Part shown: positions 22,539 to 36,271 of the stretch, piece after piece
How positions within the stretch are numbered: the first letter of the stretch is position 1
Layout of the letters: every line of letters begins with the position of its first letter
Origin: Armatimonadota bacterium
GTDB taxonomy: Bacteria; Armatimonadota; Fimbriimonadia; Fimbriimonadales; Fimbriimonadaceae
DNA length: 64,000 nt
Direction of reading: 5' to 3'
Assembly (NCBI GenBank): GCA_016125185.1
Contig: WGMG01000001.1
Span: 620,001 to 684,000, forward strand
Program-made: the position numbers and the translations under genes
The notes under the pieces: generated by a model
The model's database searches: none
The model's input: only the letters and a program-made list of their open reading frames with translations
What the model was told of the DNA's origin: nothing

Positions 22539-24473
22539 ATGCCGAAAACGACGATTGTGACGGCGATACCGTACGTCAACAGCACCCCCCATATTGGCAA
22601 CATTCTGACGACCTTGTCGGGCGATATCACGGCCCGCTACTTCAGGATGCGTGGCATGGACGTCTTTGCTGTTGCCGGAGCCGACGAGAACGGCCTGAAG
22701 ATCAAGGAAGCCGCCGAGGCCCAAGGTCGCGATCCTCACGAGTTCGTGAAGGAGATCACCGACCGCTTTGTCGCCATCTTCGATGGCATGGGCATGCAGT
22801 TTGACGCCTTTATGCGAACTTCGCGCGAGGACCATAGGATCGCCTCACAGGCGTTGTTCAAGAAGCTCCAAGAGAACGGCTACATCTACACGGCGACCTA
22901 TGAGGGCTGGTACGACGTCTCGACCGAGACGTACTACAAGGAGTCAGACTTGGTCGACGGCAAGAGCCCGGACGGCAACCCCGTGCGCTGGGTCAGCGAA
23001 GAAAACTACTTCTTCAAGCTCTCGGCGTTTGAAGACCGTCTGCTGAAGCACATCGACGAGCACCCCGATTTCATCATTCCCGAAACACGGAAAAACGAGG
23101 TGGTCAGCTTCATCCGTCAGGGTCTGTTGGACCAGTGCATCTCGCGTAAGAACAACGGCTGGGGAATTCCTGTGCCTGGCGATGAGAGCCAGGTTATTTA
23201 TGTCTGGTTCGATGCGCTGATCAACTACATCACGGCGACTGGGTGGCCGAATCCGGGCTGGGAAGACAAGTGGCCGGCTTTGTGCCAATGGCTCGGCAAG
23301 GACATCCTCACCCGATTTCACGCTACGCTGTGGCCCGCAATGCTCATGGGCGCAGATCTGCCATTGCCGAAGCACGTAATCGCCCACGCCTGGATTCTGT
23401 TGGGTGGCGAGAAGATTTCGAAGTCGAAGGGCAACGTCATCACGCCGCTCGAACTCTCGAAGGAGACAAGCGAGCGAACAGGCTGTAAGCCGGAGATTGG
23501 CGTCGATGTCGTGCGGTACTACCTGACGGCGACGATGGGCTACGAAAACGACACGGTGTTCACCTACGAAGACTTTGACAAGCGCTATAACAGCGACCTC
23601 GCGAACGACTTGGGCAACGCCCTCAACCGTTCGCTCTCAATGGCGCATAAGTTCGTCGGTGGTGTCGTACCGGATGACGCACCTGAAGCAGAAGTCCTAT
23701 CTGCGATCGCAGACGCCAAGGCGGCTTTCGAGAAGGCGATGGACGGCTTTCGACTCGAACGCGCGGCAGCAGCGGGCATCGAGGTCATTCGCTTTGTCAA
23801 CAAGTATGTGGACACCCGAGCCCCATGGGCGCTGGCCAAAGCCAACGACCCGTCGCTCCCCAGCGTGGTGCGGTCGATGTTGCTTTGCGTCCGCGCTGCC
23901 GAGGGCTTCATGAGGCCCTACATGCCCCATGCGGCCGATGCGATCGCCGCTCAGCTTGGCCTTGCTCCGCTCACCGATTGGAGTCAAATCGGCTCGCCCG
24001 AATCGCTCCCAGGCGGCACTCAACTCGGTTCACCCGAACCAATTTTCCCGCGACTTGAAATCGCCAAAACCTCCGCTCCGGCCTCCAAACCGAAACCCGA
24101 ACCCAAGCCCGAGCCTAAGAAAGAAAAAATGGAAGAAACCAACGGAAACATCATCGGCATCGAAGACTTCGCAAAGGTCCAGCTCAAAGTTGGGCGCGTC
24201 TTCGAGGCTGAGCCGGTCGAAGGGAGCGACAAGCTCCTGAAGCTCCAGGTCGTCATCGGCGAAGAGAAGCGACAGATCGTCGCTGGCATCCGCGCCAACT
24301 ATACGCCGGAAGACCTGATCGGTCGCCAGGTCGTGGTCGTCTACAACCTGAAGCCGGCCAAACTGCGTGGCGTCGAGAGCCAAGGCATGCTATTGGCGGC
24401 AACCGATGAAAACGGCGGCGCAATCCTGCTCCAGCCCGACAAGGAAGCGCCAGAAGGTACCCAGGTTCGCTAG
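22539..24473 (+). CDS. metG: Methionyl-tRNA synthetase
   Basis: A 644 aa class I synthetase that charges tRNA-Met. Signature motifs are HIGN (18-21) and KISKS (292-296). The connective insert (about 121-160) that carries a zinc knuckle with Cys pairs in many homologues has no Cys here: the region reads YEGWYDVSTETYYKESDLVDG. After the anticodon-binding domain comes a Lys/Pro/Glu-rich linker (about 515-530), then a C-terminal EMAPII-type tRNA-binding domain (about 535-644). A TAAACT box at 22523-22528 may be its -10. Stop interlocks with the convergent gene (CTAG). Confidence 0.97.
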   Translation: MPKTTIVTAIPYVNSTPHIGNILTTLSGDITARYFRMRGMDVFAVAGADENGLKIKEAAEAQGRDPHEFVKEITDRFVAIFDGMGMQFDAFMRTSREDHRIASQALFKKLQENGYIYTATYEGWYDVSTETYYKESDLVDGKSPDGNPVRWVSEENYFFKLSAFEDRLLKHIDEHPDFIIPETRKNEVVSFIRQGLLDQCISRKNNGWGIPVPGDESQVIYVWFDALINYITATGWPNPGWEDKWPALCQWLGKDILTRFHATLWPAMLMGADLPLPKHVIAHAWILLGGEKISKSKGNVITPLELSKETSERTGCKPEIGVDVVRYYLTATMGYENDTVFTYEDFDKRYNSDLANDLGNALNRSLSMAHKFVGGVVPDDAPEAEVLSAIADAKAAFEKAMDGFRLERAAAAGIEVIRFVNKYVDTRAPWALAKANDPSLPSVVRSMLLCVRAAEGFMRPYMPHAADAIAAQLGLAPLTDWSQIGSPESLPGGTQLGSPEPIFPRLEIAKTSAPASKPKPEPKPEPKKEKMEETNGNIIGIEDFAKVQLKVGRVFEAEPVEGSDKLLKLQVVIGEEKRQIVAGIRANYTPEDLIGRQVVVVYNLKPAKLRGVESQGMLLAATDENGGAILLQPDKEAPEGTQVR

Positions 24474-26692
24474 CGGAGAGCAGGCGGAATCACGGCAGGA
24501 GGCGGAACCCTCCTCGGATTGAAGCGAAACTGATCTCGGAAAGCACCACCCTCTTTGTCCGATTTGGCCATGTCGTCGAAGGCTTGCTTGACCTTCAGCT
24601 GAATCTCGCTTGGAAGGTTAGCCGCCGTGTACGTTTTGGGATCGGTGACGATTGTCTGCCCCAGGTGCCACTGGTAGCACAGCAGGGGCGAGACCATGAC
24701 CTTGATCGATAGTGACCGGGCCGAGGCGATGCGGATGTTCTTGTCGTCCAGCTTGAAGTACGGATCGTAATTCTCGCCATACGTCTCAGGCTTGGTCGCC
24801 ATGAACAACAACTGTCCGAGGTCCTCGGGCGTCATCGAGCGACCGTTCGCCATCGTCCCGAACTCTGTGTGCACCGGTTGTGAGCCGCAGTAAAGCGTCG
24901 GCTCGGTCTCGTCCGTGATCTTCAGGATAAATTTGCCATTGAGGCCGTCCGGCAGGGCGAAGGTCGGCTCGGCATAGATGCCTTGAAAGATCAGCTCCTC
25001 CACTTCATTGATCTGCTGTTGCTCCTTGTCGGTCATCTCGTGTTGGTAAAGGTCCTCGTCGACGTCCAGTCGCGACATGCCGAATTGGTTGTAGTAGATT
25101 GCGCGGAAGAGCTCCAGCCTGGCGCTTTCCGAGAGGCGATCAATCGTGATTCCGCTCTTCTTGGCGGCTTCCCGCTGGTCGCTTGTGAGTGCACCATAAA
25201 AGCGCAAACCGCTTTGGTCCGAGTTAAATTCGACCTCGTCCGTCTTGATCAGGCGGAGGTAGTCGTTGTAGCGACCAGTCCAATCGAACTCCCAAGGGAA
25301 TCGGTCGGCGAGTTCGCCCTGCTCTTCGATGGAGAGCGGTCGCCGCACCTTGTTCAGGTACCGAAATGCGGGGCCGAGGACCTTCCGATCGACAAACTGC
25401 GCGCGGCTCACGATCGGGTCCTTGTGGGCGAGCACGAACCAGCCGTCTCCGCGTGTGATGGTGCCGTCGCCGTACTTTGCGTAACTGTCGTCGAGAAACT
25501 CTGCAGTGCGAACCGCACGCTCGTCTTCGCTCAAAACCATGGCGACGTTCGGCTCGGGGATCGCGCCCAAGTAAACATCGGGCGCAGCGATGGAGAGCGG
25601 ATCGATGGTCTCCGGCTGAAGCACCATCTGAAGAAGCTGAGGACTGAGCGCCTTATTCTCGCCCCGCAACAAGCGGGGATCGACCGGCGACACGGCGTCG
25701 GCGTACTCCTTTGCGATCCCTGTCAGCTTGGTCGCCTTGCGAATCGAGTCTTCGATTTCTTGGTCGTAGGTCGTGTTGCCCGTCGCTTCAGTGTCGTCCT
25801 CGTCGAATAGGTTGTCGTCGGCGTTGAAGACCTGCTTGCCTTTCCGGTCATAGACATTCACGGTGAACGTGCTGTAGGGAAGCTGGAACGCCACCGTGAC
25901 CATATAGCAGTCGCTGAGGTGCAGAGGTTCGCGGCGCTGGTTCATGTCGCCCAAGAAAACCGGGGTCCCTTGGCCCTCGCGACGGGAGCCTTGAACGGGT
26001 GTGGTTCCGGCGATGTTGGACCACAAAGTCTGCTGGTCGCATAGCTGACGCAGAAGATCGTCAGTTGCGAACGGCATCGGGTATTGGGTTTGCGTGGGGT
26101 GGTTCGAAAAGACGATGCGGGGCGTTTCGCCGGTAAGGTGCAACAGCATGTCCGGCGTCAACCGCAGTCCGATGGCTGTGGTGAGGCGGGAGGCTGGCCC
26201 CTGTAGGTCGAGCTTTACTGCTCGCGGGTCATCGAAATAATCGCCTTTGGGTGGCGCACTTTTCGAAAGCTCTTCCAGCCCGCGTTGAATCTGCCGACAA
26301 GCCGCTTCGTCGAACGGTTTCATATCGGCGTACCGCTTCTTCGAAGTCCTCAGAATCTCGTTGATGAACTCATACCGATTCTTCGTAAAGGTCTTCTTGT
26401 CCGCGTCCTTCTGTTCGTCGGTTTGGGCCAGCCACCACCCCTCGCTTCGGTGTTCCCATGTCGCATGGAGGGCTAGCGCGATCTTGGCCTTCAGGGTTTC
26501 GGGATCGACATCGTGGGCTCGCACGAGCAAGACCTCGTTGGTCAGCGTCGGGCCAATCTGAAGCGAATCCAACCCGAGCGTTTGGGCTAGCGTATTGGCG
26601 GCGTTCTCAAGTCTCACCCCTCGTAGGTCCAGGCTGACCTTGGGCACTTGACGCGTAGCGACGACGAAGCCTAAGATGAGCGGCGCGAACAT
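24470..26692 (-). CDS. Large exported protein of unknown function, STN-like N-terminus (paralogue A)
   Basis: A 740 aa protein with a short hydrophobic signal (MFAPLILGFVVATRQ). Residues about 18-100 resemble the secretin/TonB short N-terminal (STN) domain: KVSLDLRGVRLENAANTLAQ, then a second half ending EGWWLAQ. The remaining 640 residues match no domain I know but align along their whole length with the next gene, including DPLSIAAPDVYLG, RSMTPEDLGQLLF and the VSPLLCYQW segment. It ends in a Pro-rich stretch. Probably periplasmic or surface-exposed. Promoter box at 26701-26721. Confidence 0.7.
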   Translation of the reverse strand: MFAPLILGFVVATRQVPKVSLDLRGVRLENAANTLAQTLGLDSLQIGPTLTNEVLLVRAHDVDPETLKAKIALALHATWEHRSEGWWLAQTDEQKDADKKTFTKNRYEFINEILRTSKKRYADMKPFDEAACRQIQRGLEELSKSAPPKGDYFDDPRAVKLDLQGPASRLTTAIGLRLTPDMLLHLTGETPRIVFSNHPTQTQYPMPFATDDLLRQLCDQQTLWSNIAGTTPVQGSRREGQGTPVFLGDMNQRREPLHLSDCYMVTVAFQLPYSTFTVNVYDRKGKQVFNADDNLFDEDDTEATGNTTYDQEIEDSIRKATKLTGIAKEYADAVSPVDPRLLRGENKALSPQLLQMVLQPETIDPLSIAAPDVYLGAIPEPNVAMVLSEDERAVRTAEFLDDSYAKYGDGTITRGDGWFVLAHKDPIVSRAQFVDRKVLGPAFRYLNKVRRPLSIEEQGELADRFPWEFDWTGRYNDYLRLIKTDEVEFNSDQSGLRFYGALTSDQREAAKKSGITIDRLSESARLELFRAIYYNQFGMSRLDVDEDLYQHEMTDKEQQQINEVEELIFQGIYAEPTFALPDGLNGKFILKITDETEPTLYCGSQPVHTEFGTMANGRSMTPEDLGQLLFMATKPETYGENYDPYFKLDDKNIRIASARSLSIKVMVSPLLCYQWHLGQTIVTDPKTYTAANLPSEIQLKVKQAFDDMAKSDKEGGAFRDQFRFNPRRVPPPAVIPPALR

Positions 26693-26700
26693 GTGATCCT

Positions 26701-26721
26701 TCTAACCTTCACTATAAACGA
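26701..26721 (-). promoter_or_regulatory. Promoter box identical to that of paralogue B
   Basis: On the minus strand TCGTTTATAGTGAAGGTTAG plus one base is identical to 28968-28988. TATAGT (26711-26716) is a good -10, and TAAACA 17 bases further upstream is a possible -35. AGAAGGA follows as ribosome-binding site. Transcription would start about 15 bases before the ATG. Confidence 0.6.
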
Positions 26722-26754
26722 ATCCGAGGCGGATGTTTACGTCATTCTTACGCT

Positions 26755-28956
26755 TCATCGGCTTGGCGGAGGATTCGCGTGCGTCGGCCTGGGGTAGTTG
26801 CCGATCTGATCGCCGTACTGCTTGTCGTACTTCTCCGCTTCGGCATAGCCTTTCTTGATCTCGTCGAGAATGTTTTGGGGCAGGGTGTCTGCCGTATACA
26901 CCTTCGGATCGGTGAACAGCGACTGCGTCAGCGTCCACTGACAGTTCAGCAAAGGGGAAATCGCTAACTTGATCGTAAGGTTTCGCTGGCTGATCAGGCG
27001 AATATTCTTTTCGTCGATTTTGTTGTAATTATCAACTTCCCATCGGTAGCGTTGGGGGAACTTGATCTTGAAGAGATATTGGCCAAGCTCGTTGGCTCCC
27101 ATCGATCGACCTTCGCCGTAGTAGTATCGATCGTCTTGAGCCGGCGGGCGACCGGCGTAAAGCTTATCGGTTGAATTGTCTTTGATGGTCAGAACGAAAT
27201 TGTTCAGAAGACCCTGCGGGATAGCGAATGTCTTCTCCTCGTAGATGCCTCCCCAGATCAGTTCCTGCATCTTGTAGAACTCGTTCCGCTCCTTATCCGT
27301 CATCTTGTTGACGGCTTCGTAATCGAAGTTCAGTTGAGTTTCGTAACGCTGGGAGTAGAAAAGCGCTCGGTACAGTTCCAATTTGGTGGAATCGGACATC
27401 TGCGATACGCGCAGGCCCTGGCCGGCGGCTTGCTTGCGCTGAACGTCGGACATGGATCCATAAATTCGGAGGCCGGTCCGGTTGCCGTAGTTTTCGACCT
27501 CCTTGTTACTGAGGAGGTCCAAGTAGCGTTGGTAGGCGTAGGCGTAATCTTGTTCCCACGGCAGGCTGATCGCGAGGTCGGCTTGCTCCTCCAAGTTGAG
27601 GGGCCGCTGATTCTTGTAGATATAGCGGAGGATTGGTCCGAGCCTCTTTCGGTCCGGCATCGATTTACGATTGGCGACAGGGTCGGGCTGGCGATAAATG
27701 AACCAACCATTTTCGTCAGTAATGGCCCCTAGCATTCCGTACCGAGCGTAGCGCGGGTCCTTGAACTCGGCGAAACGGGCCCCTCGCTGGTAGTCGTTCA
27801 ACACCATGATGACGTTCGGCGTGTCGATGCTGGACAGGTAGACGTCGGGGGCAGAAATCGAAAGCGGATCGACCTTTTCCGGGTGAAGGATTTTTTCGAG
27901 CAAGGACGGGCTGATATCGTGTTGCTTAGCCTTTTGGCGGTCCTTCATGCTCATGGGAGAGATCAAGTTGACGTATTCGTCGGCGTCGCCGGTCAACTTG
28001 ACCGCCATCTTCCTCTGCTTATCTAGTTCGTCCTGATAATTGTAGTTATCGTCGCCGTAGTCGTAAAAGCTGACGCTGGACTGGAAGGATCGGTGCCCAT
28101 CGCGGTCATAGCCTGCGAATTCAATGCTCTCCTGTCCGTATTGCAGGGTCATCGTAACAGTCGCAAAGTCGGTCGTTTTATACGGGTCGCGCTTTTGGTT
28201 TAGCTCGCCCAGGGAGTAGTAGCCGTCTTCCTCGGAGTTCCCAGCCCGAGGTCCGGGCAAGGGCTGGCCCGCCGCGTAGATGGACCACTGGTTCTGGTCC
28301 TGCGCCACTTGGGACAAGAGGTCATCGACCTGGAAGGGAAACGCCTGCTGCATCGCGTTCGGGTGGTTGCAGAACACAATGCGTGGATTCTCGGGAGTCA
28401 ACTGCATCCATGTCTGCGGCTTCAGGCGCATGGCGGCGCGATAGCCGAACCGACTAGCGGGGCTCTGCGAATCGATCGCCTGAATCTGACGCCAAAAACT
28501 GTTGCTGAACCGGTCAACTCGTGTCTTTGAAAGCGCCTCCAATCGCTGGACGAGGGCCTTGCAGTTCTGCTCGTCGAACGGCTTCATCTCTTGAAGCTTC
28601 TTCTGCGCCTTCTCGGTGAGCTCCTTGTAGAACTTAAAGTGTTGCTCGGCGTCGTACTTCTTTTCGGCGTCCTTCTGGTCGTCCGATTGGGTGAGACGCC
28701 AGCCTTCCTTACGGTGCTCCCAAGTTCCATTGAGGGCAAAGGCAAGCTTGTCGCGCAGGACCGAGGGTTCGATATCTTTGGCGCGCACCAGGATGACTTC
28801 GTTGATGAGAGTTGGGCCGATTTCCAGTGAATCCCAGCCAAATGTTCTGGCTAGAATTGGCGCGGCATTCTCTAGCCGAACGCCCCGGAGATCCAACGAT
28901 ACTTTCGGCTCCTGCCGAGTGATAAGACAAGCCCCAAAAAGAATCGACGCAATCAT
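26755..28956 (-). CDS. Large exported protein of unknown function, STN-like N-terminus (paralogue B)
   Basis: A 733 aa tandem paralogue of the preceding gene, with a signal-like start (MIASILFGACLITRQ) and the same STN-like region (KVSLDLRGVRLENAAPILAR ... EGWRLTQ). Conserved landmarks include DPLSISAPDVYLSS, RSMGANELGQYLF, DEKNIRL and AISPLLNCQW. The middle is rich in Tyr, Asp and Gln. No catalytic motif is visible. It has its own promoter box at 28968-28988, so the two copies are separate transcription units that duplicated together with their control region. Confidence 0.7.
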   Translation of the reverse strand: MIASILFGACLITRQEPKVSLDLRGVRLENAAPILARTFGWDSLEIGPTLINEVILVRAKDIEPSVLRDKLAFALNGTWEHRKEGWRLTQSDDQKDAEKKYDAEQHFKFYKELTEKAQKKLQEMKPFDEQNCKALVQRLEALSKTRVDRFSNSFWRQIQAIDSQSPASRFGYRAAMRLKPQTWMQLTPENPRIVFCNHPNAMQQAFPFQVDDLLSQVAQDQNQWSIYAAGQPLPGPRAGNSEEDGYYSLGELNQKRDPYKTTDFATVTMTLQYGQESIEFAGYDRDGHRSFQSSVSFYDYGDDNYNYQDELDKQRKMAVKLTGDADEYVNLISPMSMKDRQKAKQHDISPSLLEKILHPEKVDPLSISAPDVYLSSIDTPNVIMVLNDYQRGARFAEFKDPRYARYGMLGAITDENGWFIYRQPDPVANRKSMPDRKRLGPILRYIYKNQRPLNLEEQADLAISLPWEQDYAYAYQRYLDLLSNKEVENYGNRTGLRIYGSMSDVQRKQAAGQGLRVSQMSDSTKLELYRALFYSQRYETQLNFDYEAVNKMTDKERNEFYKMQELIWGGIYEEKTFAIPQGLLNNFVLTIKDNSTDKLYAGRPPAQDDRYYYGEGRSMGANELGQYLFKIKFPQRYRWEVDNYNKIDEKNIRLISQRNLTIKLAISPLLNCQWTLTQSLFTDPKVYTADTLPQNILDEIKKGYAEAEKYDKQYGDQIGNYPRPTHANPPPSR

Positions 28957-28967
28957 GTCGTTGCCCC

Positions 28968-28988
28968 TCTAACCTTCACTATAAACGA
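28968..28988 (-). promoter_or_regulatory. Promoter box identical to that of paralogue A
   Basis: Same 21 bases as 26701-26721, with TATAGT at 28978-28983 and AGAGGGG as ribosome-binding site. Bases outside the box differ, so only the -10 region and the transcript start are conserved. Confidence 0.6.
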
Positions 28989-29011: not shown

Positions 29012-30319
29012 TTAGTCTAGTTCACCCTTTTTTAATCGAAAAAGCAATGGAAAGGCGAGCGCGCAGACCAGCGTCATTCCCGCTGGGACCGCGAAGACTG
29101 CCTGCCAGTTGATGAGCTTTTCCAAATCGCTCATGCCCGGAAGTGGTAGCCGAACCGGGAGCACTGTCGTATTCATATTCTCGATCTGGCCGCCGAGGAT
29201 CGACCCAATGACGCGACCGAACCCGAAGGTGACGATGGCATACAAGGCCTGGGCCGAGGCGCGAATGTTATCGGGAGCGACTTTGGCGACGTAGATCGAA
29301 CCGCCAATCAGGAAGCAAGCAATGCAAAAGCCATGAAGAAGGATTGCGATGATCGCGCCAAGAAGCGTGGGAAGGAACACGTAGATCGCGAAGCGGAGGA
29401 ACCAGGCGAGGATTCCCAGATAGATCGTCCACTTGTATCCCAGCCGCTTGATGAGGAACGGCAGGGACAGCATCAGAATGACTTCCGACATCTGCGCAAA
29501 CGACATGTAGAACGAAACCTTTTGTGGGAGGATGCCTAAGCCCGCTCCGCCCACGCCCTGATACGAACTGGGCAAGATACGTGACAGGGTTTCCTGGGTC
29601 GGCGACGTCAGAAAGCCCGGCGTGAACATGTAGAAGAAATCGAACTGTGTGCAGATGACGAACGCAATGATCATCAGCATCATGAAGTTCGTGTTGTTCA
29701 TCAGCTTGAGCGCCGCGCCAAAGGCGAAGCGGTCGCCATCTGCCGCCGCCTTGCTCGGCGGTGTTCGCGGGATGAAGAAGCAGACGATGCCAAGGATCAG
29801 GCTGAGGACGCTCGCCATCACGAACAGGTCGCCTGGAGTCTGGAACCGGCCCGAGACTCGCCAAAACCCAAGCACCCAACCCGAAACCATCCACCCAATC
29901 GTCCCTGCCACTCGCACGTTGCCGAACTGCGTGGCTGGATCGTCGAGGTGGTGCATCACCACCGACGTGCAAAGCGCAACGGTGGGCGAAAAGAGCAAGC
30001 AATGAATGAGCAAGCAGACCAACGTGCCCGTAAAAGTGGTCTGGCGCGACATCGCGAACAGCGTCACCGCCGAAAGCAGATGAAGTGTGGCCAGCAGACG
30101 TTCGGAGTTGAAGACGCGATCCGCCAGTTGGCCGAATAACGGCGCCATGAAGATACTGCAGGCCGGCATCAGGGCGAAAAGGATGCCGAGTTGAGTGCCG
30201 TTGAAGCCGAGTCCTGCCGGAACCTGGCCTTGAAAATACGTCTGGGCTACCGGTAACCATGCTCCCCAAATCGCAAATTCTAGGAACATGAGGAGAAACA
30301 AGAGTCCAAAACGCCGCAT
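29012..30319 (-). CDS. MFS transporter of the nucleoside symporter (NupG-like) family
   Basis: A protein of about 435 aa with 12 hydrophobic helices. The ATG at 30319 gives MRRFGLLFLLMFLEFAIWGAWLPV, the typical start of nucleoside:H+ symporters of the NupG/XapB group. GFNGTQLGILFALMPACSIFMAPLFGQLADR is the first MFS inter-helix loop. The substrate is only inferred; a sugar or nucleoside is likely given the neighbouring GH20 enzyme and sugar isomerase. Start lies 30 bases from the divergent GH20 start. Confidence 0.85.
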   Translation of the reverse strand: MRRFGLLFLLMFLEFAIWGAWLPVAQTYFQGQVPAGLGFNGTQLGILFALMPACSIFMAPLFGQLADRVFNSERLLATLHLLSAVTLFAMSRQTTFTGTLVCLLIHCLLFSPTVALCTSVVMHHLDDPATQFGNVRVAGTIGWMVSGWVLGFWRVSGRFQTPGDLFVMASVLSLILGIVCFFIPRTPPSKAAADGDRFAFGAALKLMNNTNFMMLMIIAFVICTQFDFFYMFTPGFLTSPTQETLSRILPSSYQGVGGAGLGILPQKVSFYMSFAQMSEVILMLSLPFLIKRLGYKWTIYLGILAWFLRFAIYVFLPTLLGAIIAILLHGFCIACFLIGGSIYVAKVAPDNIRASAQALYAIVTFGFGRVIGSILGGQIENMNTTVLPVRLPLPGMSDLEKLINWQAVFAVPAGMTLVCALAFPLLFRLKKGELD

Positions 30320-30349
30320 TCGCAGTAAGTTTAGACCTACAATTCGGAA

Positions 30350-32527
30350 ATGCTTGGCATTTTGGCGGCTCTTTGGACCCAAAACCCGGGTGTTTTGCCC
30401 CTCGTTCCCCTCCCGACCAGCGTAAAGTCCGTGGCATCGAAGCCCTTTCTGTTCGATAAGTGGACAGTAGTCACCACCGACAAAAAGATGTTCGCCGTCA
30501 GCGAGCTTCGGAGCCTAGTTCCGCAGTTCAAGTTGGCCTATTCGGCGGGCAACGCCAAGAACGTCGTCACGTTTCAGCACGACGCCAAGTTGGGTAACGA
30601 AGCCTACACCCTCCACGTTGATTTCGACCACATCCTGGTCCGATACAGTAAGCCCGCCGGAGCGCTGTACGCCATCGAAACGCTGAAGCAACTCCGGCAG
30701 GGAACATCCAACCAGTTCGCCTCGGTGGACATTCAGGACTCGCCTCGCTTCAAGTGGCGCGGCATGCACCTCGACGTCTCTCGCCATTTCTTCCCTGTGA
30801 CTGTCATCAAGCGGACGCTCGACCTCATGAAGGCGGTCAAGATGAACGTGTTCCATTGGCATTTGGTCGACGACGGCGGCTGGCGACTGGAGATCAAGAA
30901 GTATCCCAAACTCACCGAGATCGGCGCATGGCGAAAGGGAACGGGCGTGCCGTGGAGTTATTCAGACATCAATCTCGCCAAGCCGGTGCCGGGCGAAGAG
31001 AGCTACGGCGGCTTCTACACCCAGGCGCAGGTCCGCGATGTGGTGAAGTACGCGGCGGACCGTGGCATCACCGTTGTGCCCGAGATCGAGATGCCGGGCC
31101 ATACTCTGCCGGTGCTGGTTGCCTATCCCGAACTCGGGTGTACCGGCGCGACCAAGTATCCCGGCAACTCATGGACGACCAACGTCTACTGCGCGGGCAA
31201 AGATGCCACCTTTCAATTCATCGACAACGTGCTCGACGAGGTCATGAAGCTGTTCCCCTCGCCGTGGATTCACATCGGCGGCGACGAGGTGGATAAGAAG
31301 TGGTGGAATGCCTGTCCCGACTGTCAGGCGCGGATGAAGGCCGAGAACCTGAAGGACGCGGGTGAACTCCAAAGCTACTTCATCAAGCGGGTCGAGCAGT
31401 ACATCAATTCGAAGGGCCGAAAGATGATCGGCTGGGATGAGATTCTCGAAGGCGGACTCGCGCCCAATGCAACGGTCATGTCCTGGCGCGGTATCGACGG
31501 CGGTATCGCCGCCGCCAAGTCCGGCCATGAGGTCGTCATGTCGCCGACGTCGCACTGCTACTTCGACTACAGCTACGACGCCATCTCGACTGAGCACGTC
31601 TACAACTGGGAGCCTGTACCCCCCTCGCTGGTCGGCAAGGAGCGAAACTACGTGATTGGTGGCCAGTGCAATGTCTGGACCGAATGGATTCCCACCGTTG
31701 AGCGATATGACCGCATGGTGTGGCCGCGAGCCTTTGCGACCGCCGAAGTGCTGTGGTCATCCGCGCCGAAGGATTGGGACAATTTCCAGACCCGACTCCT
31801 GCCGAACGTGCGGAATCTGGATTCGATGGGTGTCGCCTACTACCTCGAAGCGCCGAGCATTCCGTGCGCCTTCTCGTTCGACACCAAGCCAATGACGATC
31901 TATCGGAGCGACTTCAATCAACCCGTCTTCGGGAGCGGGGCGGCCAACGCCCAAGCTCGCGACTGGAAGCTAGTGTTGGCTCAGCAACTCCCGATGGATA
32001 CGCCGTTCTACCTCGCCTACAAACGTGGCGATGGTACTCTGGGCGACGCTGCCGCGCTCTATCAAAGCTCGAAGGTGTATCCGCTTCCGTCCGTGATGCC
32101 GGCCAACGGCCTCTCGGTCGAAGTGATCAAGGGCAAGTACTCCAGCGTCGATGAGTTCGAGCATGCGCCGCCTCAGGCGGCCGTACCAGTGACCGATGTC
32201 GACCTGGCGAAGAAACCAAGCGGCGACCAGCCGTTTGCTCTGCGCTTTAAGGCGAGAATTCACTTTCCCGACCGCAAGTTTCGGCTGTATGTGACCAGCG
32301 ACGACGGCTCGGTGGTGAAGCTGAACGGCGTTCGTGTGGTGGATAACGACGGCCTCCACGGAGCGGTGCCGAGGAGTTCTGGAATTCAGGCCGCCGACGG
32401 CTTCTACAACCTGGAAGTGCTCTTCTTTGATGCGGGTGGCGCGTCGTCGCTAAAGCTCGAATACGAGTCGGACACGGTCAAGCGCGAAGCTATCCCGACC
32501 AGTTGGTACTACCAGCCGGGATCGTAA
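30350..32527 (+). CDS. Secreted beta-N-acetylhexosaminidase (GH20) with PA14-like C-terminal domain
   Basis: A 725 aa protein that would release terminal N-acetylglucosamine or N-acetylgalactosamine, for example from chitin fragments or cell-wall material. A short N-terminal hydrophobic segment suggests export. The GH20b domain is about 25-130 and the catalytic barrel about 135-480, starting FKWRGMHLDVSRHFFPV; the catalytic pair is Asp312-Glu313 in HIGGDEVDKKWW. The end (about 610-720: KARIHFPDRKFRLYVTSDDG ... LEVLFFDAGG) looks like a PA14 carbohydrate-binding module. Divergent from the MFS transporter. Confidence 0.93.
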   Translation: MLGILAALWTQNPGVLPLVPLPTSVKSVASKPFLFDKWTVVTTDKKMFAVSELRSLVPQFKLAYSAGNAKNVVTFQHDAKLGNEAYTLHVDFDHILVRYSKPAGALYAIETLKQLRQGTSNQFASVDIQDSPRFKWRGMHLDVSRHFFPVTVIKRTLDLMKAVKMNVFHWHLVDDGGWRLEIKKYPKLTEIGAWRKGTGVPWSYSDINLAKPVPGEESYGGFYTQAQVRDVVKYAADRGITVVPEIEMPGHTLPVLVAYPELGCTGATKYPGNSWTTNVYCAGKDATFQFIDNVLDEVMKLFPSPWIHIGGDEVDKKWWNACPDCQARMKAENLKDAGELQSYFIKRVEQYINSKGRKMIGWDEILEGGLAPNATVMSWRGIDGGIAAAKSGHEVVMSPTSHCYFDYSYDAISTEHVYNWEPVPPSLVGKERNYVIGGQCNVWTEWIPTVERYDRMVWPRAFATAEVLWSSAPKDWDNFQTRLLPNVRNLDSMGVAYYLEAPSIPCAFSFDTKPMTIYRSDFNQPVFGSGAANAQARDWKLVLAQQLPMDTPFYLAYKRGDGTLGDAAALYQSSKVYPLPSVMPANGLSVEVIKGKYSSVDEFEHAPPQAAVPVTDVDLAKKPSGDQPFALRFKARIHFPDRKFRLYVTSDDGSVVKLNGVRVVDNDGLHGAVPRSSGIQAADGFYNLEVLFFDAGGASSLKLEYESDTVKREAIPTSWYYQPGS

Positions 32528-33408: not shown

Positions 33409-34761
33409 ATGCCCTTTCTGCCATTTGAAGCTGTGGACTCAAGTGGTAAGACTGTGCGAGGCACCCTGCAAGCCAATAGCATGCAGGACCTCGAGATGAT
33501 GCTGATTCAGCGAGGGCTCCGGCTGGTTTCCTCTGGTCAGGCCGCGCCTATCCAAGCCGCTCCGCCCACTCAGCCTCGACCGATGCAGTCGGCCAGACCC
33601 ATCGCCCAACCGGCCCCTGTCATTCGTCCGTCCGCGCCGCAACCGCGTCCGCAGGAGGTCGCCCGTGCCGTTCCGGCGGCGGCTCCCGCCAGTACGACCC
33701 CGCCCTCGGCGGTGGACTACCACACGCCCGAGCTTTCGGACAAGCAAATCTATTTCATCTTCAGTCAGTTCGCCAGCTTCTTTCGGTCGGGCTTCTCGGC
33801 CAGTCAGATGATCCAGCACACGACGGCTAAGGCCCCGCCCAAGATTCACGCCGTTTTTGCCCAAATGGAGCGAGAAGTGGCGGGTGGCAAGCCGCTTTCG
33901 GACGCGATGGAGCTTCGCCCTCGAACCTTCCATCCCGACATGGTGTCGATCGTCCGCGCGGGTGAGCGAAGCGGCCAACTGGGTGAGGCGTACGACGTTA
34001 TCGCCGATCAGGCTCAGCGCAGTCGCGCCTTTCGCCTACCCCTCGGCTACTTCTTCGCGATGACGCCTTTTCTCATCTTCTGCGGTATCGGCGGCATCGG
34101 CATTCAGACGGCCTCGAACGCCACCATCCGACGTCAGTTTGACGCTGACGGTCAGCTTCCGCCGGTGGGAACCCTGATGCAAGAAATCCAAAAGCAGATG
34201 TCGCACAGCATCCTCGCCGGGCTTCTCATTGCGCTGGCCTTCGTTGCGACGGTCGTTTTCCTGAAGAAGTATCCGTTCCGCATGTTCCGCCACCGGTTCG
34301 GTCTCATGATGCCCATCGGCTACTCGCGAGCCAAATCCGAAGCGATCGAGCGTTTTTCGTGGAGTATGGGCGCGATGCTGAAGGGTGGTGCGTCGCCGTC
34401 TTCCTCCGTCCAAATTGCTGCGGGAAGCATTCCCAACCTTGCCCTGCGCCAGAAAGCCTTGGATGCGCTTGGATCGACGCGGGAAAACGAATCGCTCGCC
34501 ACGGTGCTTCAACGGACGGGCCTACTGAGCCCCGAGTATGTGAACATCGCTCAAAACGGCGAGTTGGTGGGCGATACCCCTGGAGCCCTGGCGAGCATCG
34601 AACGGGCCGAGGCCGCCTCGGCCGAAACCAAGACCGGCGGTCTGAAGATCGTCATCATGGCCACTACGACGCTGGCGATGGCCGCCTTTGTCGCCATCAT
34701 GGTGGTCATCCTATACAAAATGTACGCCACCGGCATCATCAAGCTGATGATGGAGCAGTAG
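33409..34761 (+). CDS. Type II secretion/type IV pilus platform protein (GspF/PilC family), copy 1
   Basis: A 450 aa inner-membrane protein. The first 45 residues (LPFEAVDSSGKTVRGTL ... LIQRGLRLVSS) are the usual GspF N-terminal motif. A Pro/Ala/Gln-rich linker (about 46-105) leads to two GspF repeats, the first with FASFFRSGFSASQMIQ and RPRTFHPDMVSIVRAGERSG, the second with MLKGGASPSSSV and AQNGELVGDTPG. Hydrophobic helices lie near 210-230, 265-285 and 410-440. In the pilus or secretion machine it anchors the assembly ATPase, but no ATPase or pilin gene is nearby. Confidence 0.88.
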   Translation: MPFLPFEAVDSSGKTVRGTLQANSMQDLEMMLIQRGLRLVSSGQAAPIQAAPPTQPRPMQSARPIAQPAPVIRPSAPQPRPQEVARAVPAAAPASTTPPSAVDYHTPELSDKQIYFIFSQFASFFRSGFSASQMIQHTTAKAPPKIHAVFAQMEREVAGGKPLSDAMELRPRTFHPDMVSIVRAGERSGQLGEAYDVIADQAQRSRAFRLPLGYFFAMTPFLIFCGIGGIGIQTASNATIRRQFDADGQLPPVGTLMQEIQKQMSHSILAGLLIALAFVATVVFLKKYPFRMFRHRFGLMMPIGYSRAKSEAIERFSWSMGAMLKGGASPSSSVQIAAGSIPNLALRQKALDALGSTRENESLATVLQRTGLLSPEYVNIAQNGELVGDTPGALASIERAEAASAETKTGGLKIVIMATTTLAMAAFVAIMVVILYKMYATGIIKLMMEQ

Positions 34762-34864: not shown

Positions 34865-36271
34865 ATGCCGACGTTCCAATATCAGGCCCTGAATCCCGAG
34901 GGTGAGGCCATTAGTGGCATCGTCTTTGGGACGAGTCTCGATAACGCGATGGGCGATCTGTTGAAGCGCGGACTCAATATCCAGTCCATCGGCGTCGCGA
35001 CTGCGCTCGGCGACCCGCTTGCCAACCAGCCCGTCTACCGGCCAGACTCGTCTGCTGCCGTCGTGTCCGATCCCGTTGAATCTCCGACCGAGTACGGCAA
35101 TGAATACATCATCGATGGTCGCGGTGGAAAGATCGACGCCTCCGTTTCGGTCACGAAGTCCGTCGCGGAAGGCATCGAAAGCTATTCAGGACATGAAGGG
35201 GCCAAGAAAGGTCCTCCCACCCACCAGCGTAACTACGTCGCCACCAGCGTCGTCGGCCCAATCGCCGGCAAGGTTTCGCTCGCCAATCTCGCATTCTTCT
35301 TCAACCAGCTCGGCACCATGATGAAGGCCGGTGTGCCAATGGTCCAGAGTCTGGACACGCTGTCCAATCAAGCCCGCGACCCACGCTTCAAGCACGTCAT
35401 CAAGGAAATGGTCGGCCACGTCGAGGCCGGACGCCCGATGACGGCCGGCATGCAACGCTACCCGGAAATCTTCTCCCCGGTCATGCTCAGCATTATCCGC
35501 ACCGGCGAAGAAGGTGGCTTCCTGGATGAAGCGCTCTTCACCGTCGCTAAGTACACCGAAGACGAGATTGAGCTTCGCAACCTCTATCGCCGAGTCACCA
35601 TCTACCCGAAACTCCTTATCATCGCCTCGATCATCATCATCGTCGGCGCAAACGCGGTCATCCATTTTCTCGCGCCCGGCGCAAAGGGCCTCTCGTCGCC
35701 GCTGACCAACATCTCGACGTGGTACATCCTCACGCCGATCATCATTGGTCTGTTCTTGTTCTTCCGCGTCGGCCTTGCCAACTTCGGCATCAAGTACATG
35801 TGGGACATGTTCATCAGTTTGGTCCCGTTCCTAGGCAAGACCATTCGCCAGATGGCGATGGCCAAGTTCGGTCGGGCGTTTGGCGCGTTGTACAAGGCCG
35901 GTGTACCGCTACCGCGGGTGGTTAAACTCGCCGCCGACTCGTGCGGAAACGAATATTTACGCTCCAAGCTCTACCCCGCCTCAAACGTTTTGGAGGGTGG
36001 CGCGGGGATTACCGAAACACTCGCTTCGACCGGTGCGCTGTCGCCTATTGTCGTCGACATGCTGAGCACGGGCGAACGGACCGGCAACCTGGACCACATG
36101 CTCAACAAGATGTCCGACTATTACCACGACGAGGCCAAAACTCGGTCCGTGCAGTTGGGACAATTCGTCGGTGTGGTGGTGCTCCTGATGGCCGCCATCT
36201 ACATCGCCTACGTCATCATCACGTTCTACCAGAGCTACGGAAGTCAGGTGACGAACCAGATCAATCAGTAA
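34865..36271 (+). CDS. Type II secretion/type IV pilus platform protein (GspF/PilC family), copy 2
   Basis: A 468 aa inner-membrane protein with the same layout as copy 1: N-terminal motif FQYQALNPEGEAISGIV (1-45), a polar linker (about 50-135), then two GspF repeats (FFNQLGTMMKAGVPMVQSL with IIRTGEEGGFLDE, and FGALYKAGVPLPRVV with STGERTGNLDHM). Hydrophobic helices lie near 245-275, 285-305 and 430-455. It is closer to canonical PilC than copy 1. TATAAC ends four bases before the ATG, so the transcript may be leaderless. Confidence 0.92.
   Translation: MPTFQYQALNPEGEAISGIVFGTSLDNAMGDLLKRGLNIQSIGVATALGDPLANQPVYRPDSSAAVVSDPVESPTEYGNEYIIDGRGGKIDASVSVTKSVAEGIESYSGHEGAKKGPPTHQRNYVATSVVGPIAGKVSLANLAFFFNQLGTMMKAGVPMVQSLDTLSNQARDPRFKHVIKEMVGHVEAGRPMTAGMQRYPEIFSPVMLSIIRTGEEGGFLDEALFTVAKYTEDEIELRNLYRRVTIYPKLLIIASIIIIVGANAVIHFLAPGAKGLSSPLTNISTWYILTPIIIGLFLFFRVGLANFGIKYMWDMFISLVPFLGKTIRQMAMAKFGRAFGALYKAGVPLPRVVKLAADSCGNEYLRSKLYPASNVLEGGAGITETLASTGALSPIVVDMLSTGERTGNLDHMLNKMSDYYHDEAKTRSVQLGQFVGVVVLLMAAIYIAYVIITFYQSYGSQVTNQINQ

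Follow-up and report, generated by a model that had tools for sequence, protein, structure and literature searches.

Tandem proteins of an undescribed Armatimonadota family are built on a duplicated STN-plus-helical unit and may act as periplasmic scaffolds

Binding between STN domains, and between STN domains and their partners, has been documented for secretins and TonB-dependent transducers (PMC11637429, PMC7186176); the STN domains bind each other, the STN domains of other secretins, and inner-membrane partners (PMC11637429). The C-terminal STN of PupR is an exception, as STN domains are otherwise reported N-terminal to other domains (PMC7186176). Here we describe two tandem genes encoding proteins of 733 (W733) and 740 (W740) amino acids in a 64-kb stretch of an Armatimonadota genome (assembly GCA_016125185.1, contig WGMG01000001.1), hereafter the window, within which all coordinates are counted (Table 1). 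In both, an STN domain and a helical module form a unit that was duplicated within the protein long ago, an architecture that is well supported.

W733 and W740 have in common with the secretins an N-terminal STN fold, the N0 domain of PilQ (4ar0, 4av2), InvG (6pem), and XcpQ (4ec5). Unlike the secretins, they possess no barrel, and helical modules together with beta-meanders replace N1/N2 and the pore; in addition, they carry two STN copies about 250 residues apart. The secretin barrel PF00263 has no match in W733, W740, or 14 other family members, and six other open reading frames (ORFs) of the genome score above its cut-off. The TonB-dependent transducers FecA, PupB, and FoxA likewise have an STN-type N-terminal domain behind a signal sequence, followed by a plug and a beta-barrel, whereas W733 and W740 lack both and the genome offers no FecR partner. 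PF00593 and PF07715 do not match any of the same 16 proteins, and the AlphaFold2 (AF2) model of W733 is alpha/beta, without a series of barrel-length strands; the genome holds two TonB-dependent receptors. A non-N-terminal STN, which is rare, is also found in the FecR/PupR-type sigma regulators (4m0h; PMC7186176) and resembles in this respect the second STN of the family. These regulators differ from W733 and W740, which look soluble, lack an anti-sigma or FecR domain, and carry STN modules both at the N-terminus and internally; the FecR domain PF04773 is absent from the two proteins, and from the genome at E <= 0.01.

The duplication is carried by profile comparisons across the phylum. The first half of the phylum-wide members aligns with the second half in hhalign (98.3% probability, E 2.1e-14, 185 columns), while reversed or column-permuted controls give E 0.3-0.8, and an ancient internal duplication of the STN-plus-helical unit therefore follows. 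The two components repeat individually as well: the helical parts still match when the STN parts are removed (90%, E 1.5e-6), and the phylum-wide STN1 matches STN2 with 97% probability (E 1e-10 to 5e-12). The match of the W733 STN module 2 is weaker (86%, E 4.8e-6, to the phylum-wide STN2; 37% to STN1), and the W733 helical module 2 matches the phylum-wide helical module 2 (98.8%, E 6e-17) as well as helical module 1 (94.6%, E 6e-8). The W733-like subfamily compared against itself gives a weak signal (20%, E 1e-3) in a consistent register, and a segment-against-segment comparison within the W733-like set revealed no repeat, so that the duplication is clear only with phylum-wide members. Judged from these alignments, STN module 2 is degenerate in the W733/W740 subfamily and clear in relatives from other classes. 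Family-wide, the signal for two STN-plus-helical units within a single exported protein is strong. The architecture of the family is new and built on a known domain; it is unusual for one protein to carry, through duplication of a unit, an STN at its N-terminus and another internally, and this arrangement provides a testable envelope-docking hypothesis in a poorly studied diderm phylum.

The original prediction, made from the DNA sequence, proposed an STN-like N-terminus, and both a profile match and a fold match bear this out. Columns 24-112 of the family profile, an alignment of 16 members, match the N0 domain of Neisseria PilQ (4ar0) in a PDB search with E = 2e-4. The phylum-wide STN1 profile also places PilQ N0 at the top of the PDB (E 2.4e-3), as does the phylum-wide STN2 profile (E 2e-4). 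Structures were modelled from the sequences of window proteins and of proteins from related loci; the AF2 model of W733 reached a predicted local distance difference test (pLDDT) score of 81.6 and a predicted template modelling (pTM) score of 0.77. In this model, residues 16-98 resemble PilQ 4av2 (Z 7.5, root-mean-square deviation (rmsd) 2.9 A over 81 residues), InvG 6pem (Z 7.4, 2.6 A over 75), and the FecR-type 4m0h (Z 7.3, 2.4 A over 72), and the secretin N0 and FecR-type matches together span Z 7.2-7.5, rmsd 2.3-2.9 A, and 72-81 residues. The Pfam STN model (PF07660 / SM00965; cut-off 28.4 bits) matches neither W733 nor W740 even at E 10, its best scores among relatives (E 0.0026-0.0031) fall short of the curated cut-off, FecR_C matches are weak, and a PDB search with the single protein sequence returned chance matches only. 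As modelled, STN module 1 is a canonical and real STN domain despite the Pfam model missing both proteins.

The rest of the body was said to contain no known domain, which holds in part. The body is not wholly unknown, since the N-terminal unit recurs in it as a second copy of about 200 residues. Searches with the full model and with the C-terminal half alone gave no PDB structure at E <= 0.001 for the helical modules, the meanders, and the C-terminal domain, leaving the STN part as the only one with a solved counterpart. Recurrent fold matches to Bet v 1/START proteins (E 0.06-0.8, rmsd 16-20 A) and matches to the maturation protein of single-stranded RNA phages were judged to be chance. Since the C-terminal half modelled alone is poor (pLDDT 67), we do not claim that it has no known fold. 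In the AF2 model of W733, a beta-meander follows each STN-plus-helical unit. The proteins end in a proline-rich tail: PP or PPP occurs within the last 12 residues of 31 out of 48 family members, compared with none of 74 neighbouring ORFs.

Neither W733 nor W740 has a significant match in Pfam or NCBIfam, and they belong to an undescribed, lineage-expanded, and often tandem-copied family of Armatimonadota. The 16-member profile detects about 11 members in their own genome, several as tandem pairs or triplets, and matches 205 of 291 Armatimonadota genomes (all counts come from about 290 sampled genomes, each of them scored to a limited extent). Outside the order, its matches fall into one block at the STN region and another at residues ~413-545, within ORFs mostly of 600-850 amino acids. 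A second profile, built from divergent proteins, recovers full-length members in other classes and in 193 of the 291 genomes (E <= 1e-5); the 16-member and phylum-wide profiles align at E 1.9e-29 across 463 columns, and the two sets are therefore one phylum-wide family. The profile searches covered Armatimonadota as the only phylum. Plasmids (searched with the homologue L107) and phages (searched with W733) yielded no relatives, a single-protein scan of a genome contig collection gave no match, and a pattern-limited scan of the same collection returned three loci, all from Armatimonadota. Nothing relevant was found in the literature on STN or secretin proteins in Armatimonadota. The claim of a new exported family thus stands for its novelty, the family being missing from both databases, and probably for export, signal-like N-termini being present in most members; the suggested survey of its spread placed it throughout most of the phylum, often in many copies. 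A multi-copy family that roughly two thirds of the sampled genomes contain, and that Pfam and NCBIfam both lack, represents a sizeable annotation blind spot in Armatimonadota. The longest tandem array has six members in a row (G225 contig 117), and one 941-residue paralogue (L086:1023-3848) contains long Gly/Asn-rich insertions in two loops. Three genomes of the same family-level taxon, G152, G153 (1.5 Mb), and G028, match neither profile; two of them are reduced, with one or no secretin.

W733 and W740 are likely exported, as read from their N-termini and those of their relatives, which are mostly hydrophobic and in many cases ordinary charged Sec-type signals. Short uncharged N-termini occur in W733 (MIASILFGACLITR), in W740 (26651-26692), and in several other Fimbriimonas copies, and the N-terminus of the neighbouring GH20 protein (30350-30391) is similar (MLGILAALWTQNPG); this may be the signal-sequence style of the lineage. 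Once in the periplasm, the proteins would play a non-catalytic scaffold or adaptor role, in which the two STN modules would dock, either with one another or with further family members or different STN-type proteins of the envelope; paralogue-specific binding could come from the variable loops and the C-terminal domain. With low confidence we infer a scaffold or adaptor function, and we give this reading, an exported family with a duplicated unit acting as a periplasmic non-enzymatic scaffold through STN docking, a probability of roughly 0.4. The putative non-catalytic nature is an argument from residue conservation: neither His nor Cys is conserved, and the positions that hardly vary are chiefly P, G, W, R, V, Q, and L. 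A wider version, a phylum-specific class of periplasmic scaffolds that can number up to tens of paralogues in a genome and whose STN-STN assembly forms an envelope structure or docking network absent elsewhere, is doubtful.

Several observations weigh against the scaffold reading. No partner emerged, the gene neighbours vary between copies, and genomes without the family carry 2-7 secretins, two reduced genomes excepted. Within the W733/W740 subfamily, STN1 and STN2 compared directly reach a probability of only 12%, STN2 being degenerate there, and residues 365-424 are unfolded when modelled without the N-terminal half. Moreover, export is deduced mainly from relatives because the signal sequences of W733 and W740 are short and uncharged.

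The N0-type STN modules could instead serve as secretin accessories, docking to the cell's own secretins of type II secretion systems (T2SS) or type IV pili and guiding substrates or pseudopilins. PilQ N0 is the closest solved relative of both STN modules, the genome encodes six secretins, Fimbriimonas ginsengisoli was reported with 79 pseudopilin genes (PMC4072686), and two relatives have prepilin-like genes close to the locus. However, secretins are present in 19 of 20 sampled genomes irrespective of the family, their numbers do not track with it (G081 has seven secretins without a family match, G023 three with many family candidates), and no family copy directly adjoins a secretin gene in the examined stretches, which makes such a role unlikely. 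Since genomes without the family keep their secretins, the family is not an obligate secretin component, and an obligate partnership was ruled out by this co-occurrence. A FecA/FecR- or PupB/PupR-like relay of signals from the cell surface to an anti-sigma factor would draw on the fold common to transducers and FecR-type C-terminal domains (4m0h, Z 7.3; weak FecR_C matches). FecR signalling was rejected because no FecR domain occurs in the genome at E <= 0.01, control genomes being positive; W733 and W740 have no receptor barrel, no sigma or anti-sigma gene was noticed next to the copies examined, and we consider cell-surface signalling highly improbable. The link to outer-envelope transport in the original prediction is not upheld either, given the lack of secretin, TonB-receptor, and FecR domains, the genome without FecR, and the secretins of genomes without the family; a structural or scaffolding role for W733 and W740 is possible.

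Four relatives share the gene order GH20 - MFS - family gene(s) - metG, and a fifth has an MFS (major facilitator superfamily) gene beside family genes, which could indicate that W733 and W740 are periplasmic sugar-binding or sugar-handling partners of the GH20 hexosaminidase and the MFS symporter in amino-sugar uptake. This seems quite unlikely, as most copies adjoin unrelated genes (aconitase-, alaS-, and leuS-like, judged from N-termini by eye), W733 and W740 have their own promoter-like leaders, and a gene order shared within one genus may simply have been inherited. An enzyme of unrecognised fold in the C-terminal half would agree with the lack of PDB matches to that half (E <= 0.001) and with the good conservation of R436, D388, E574, and T576. 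It is very unlikely, as there is no conserved His/Cys/Ser cluster and the near-invariant residues are mostly structural.

Table 1. Features of the W733/W740 locus (positions within the 64-kb window).
Feature	Position	Strand	Basis
W733, family protein, 733 aa	26755..28956	-	intact ORF
W740, family protein, 740 aa, tandem paralogue of W733	24470..26692	-	intact ORF
W733 STN module 1, about residues 17-92	28681..28908	-	PilQ N0 profile match; fold match Z 7.2-7.5
W740 STN module 1, about residues 17-92	26417..26644	-	alignment to W733
W733 helical module 1, about residues 92-190	28387..28683	-	AF2 helices 92-183; counterpart of the phylum-wide helical module
W733 beta-meander 1, about residues 262-298	28063..28173	-	AF2 strands 266-272, 277-283, 288-296
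W733 degenerate STN module 2, about residues 360-423	27688..27879	-	aligns with internal STN of phylum-wide members
W740 degenerate STN module 2, about residues 361-423	25424..25612	-	alignment to W733
W733 helical module 2, about residues 424-535	27352..27687	-	hhalign; the body's most widely conserved block
W733 C-terminal beta strands and long helix, about residues 586-719	26800..27201	-	AF2; no PDB match at E <= 0.001
W733 disordered C-terminal tail with final PPP	26758..26799	-	pLDDT below 50
W733 short uncharged hydrophobic N-terminus, probable signal sequence	28915..28956	-	hydropathy
21-nt promoter-like element TCGTTTATAGTGAAGGTTAGA upstream of W733, -10 TATAGT	28968..28988	-	one of two copies in the genome
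Identical 21-nt promoter-like element TCGTTTATAGTGAAGGTTAGA upstream of W740	26701..26721	-	one of two copies in the genome
Nuc_H_symport/MFS transporter gene upstream of W733	29012..30382	-	PF03825, E 3e-86

The promoter-like element TCGTTTATAGTGAAGGTTAGA occurs in exactly two copies in the window, and its 20-nt core in exactly two in the 4.5-Mb assembly; the copies sit 8 and 11 bases ahead of the two start codons. Two other genomes have a related sequence ahead of orthologues, and in front of one orthologue it forms the dyad AATCGTT-N6-AACGATT. The tandem copies would be transcribed separately, each from its own promoter-like leader, and since each has such an element, W733 and W740 appear, from the sequence upstream of them, to be separately transcribed yet jointly controlled.

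W733 and W740 align from end to end (43% identity, 60% similarity, 743 columns, E = 0), and both ORFs are intact, which confirms the earlier description of two tandem paralogues, although the label "giant" is overstated for proteins of about 740 residues. In the tree, W740 branches off immediately before the clade that unites W733 with its orthologues (support 97/96), the orthologues in other Fimbriimonas-type genomes being 49-51% identical to W733, and the second locus copies in two other genomes represent an older paralogue. W740 and the convergent metG overlap by four bases at their stops; on the other side, the MFS gene lies 55 bp upstream of W733, with the divergent GH20 hexosaminidase gene beyond. 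The named syntenic relatives (n=3) are an uncultured Fimbriimonas sp., an Armatimonadetes bacterium, and a Fimbriimonadales bacterium, which assigns the window to the class Fimbriimonadia of the Armatimonadota; the GH20 - MFS - family gene(s) - metG order is conserved in two of them and in two more congeners, and in the third the MFS gene adjoins the family pair, which brings the relatives with MFS next to family genes to five. One family copy is present at this locus in two congeners and two copies in three congeners.

The TTG start of the MFS ORF overlaps the divergent GH20 start (30319-30382), and the true start is probably an internal ATG near 30319, matching the first residues (MRRFGLL) of the orthologue in L085. 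Two adjacent T2SSF (GspF/PilC-like) genes are also found near the locus (33409-34761 and 34865-36271), the former with a counterpart close to the same locus in L085.

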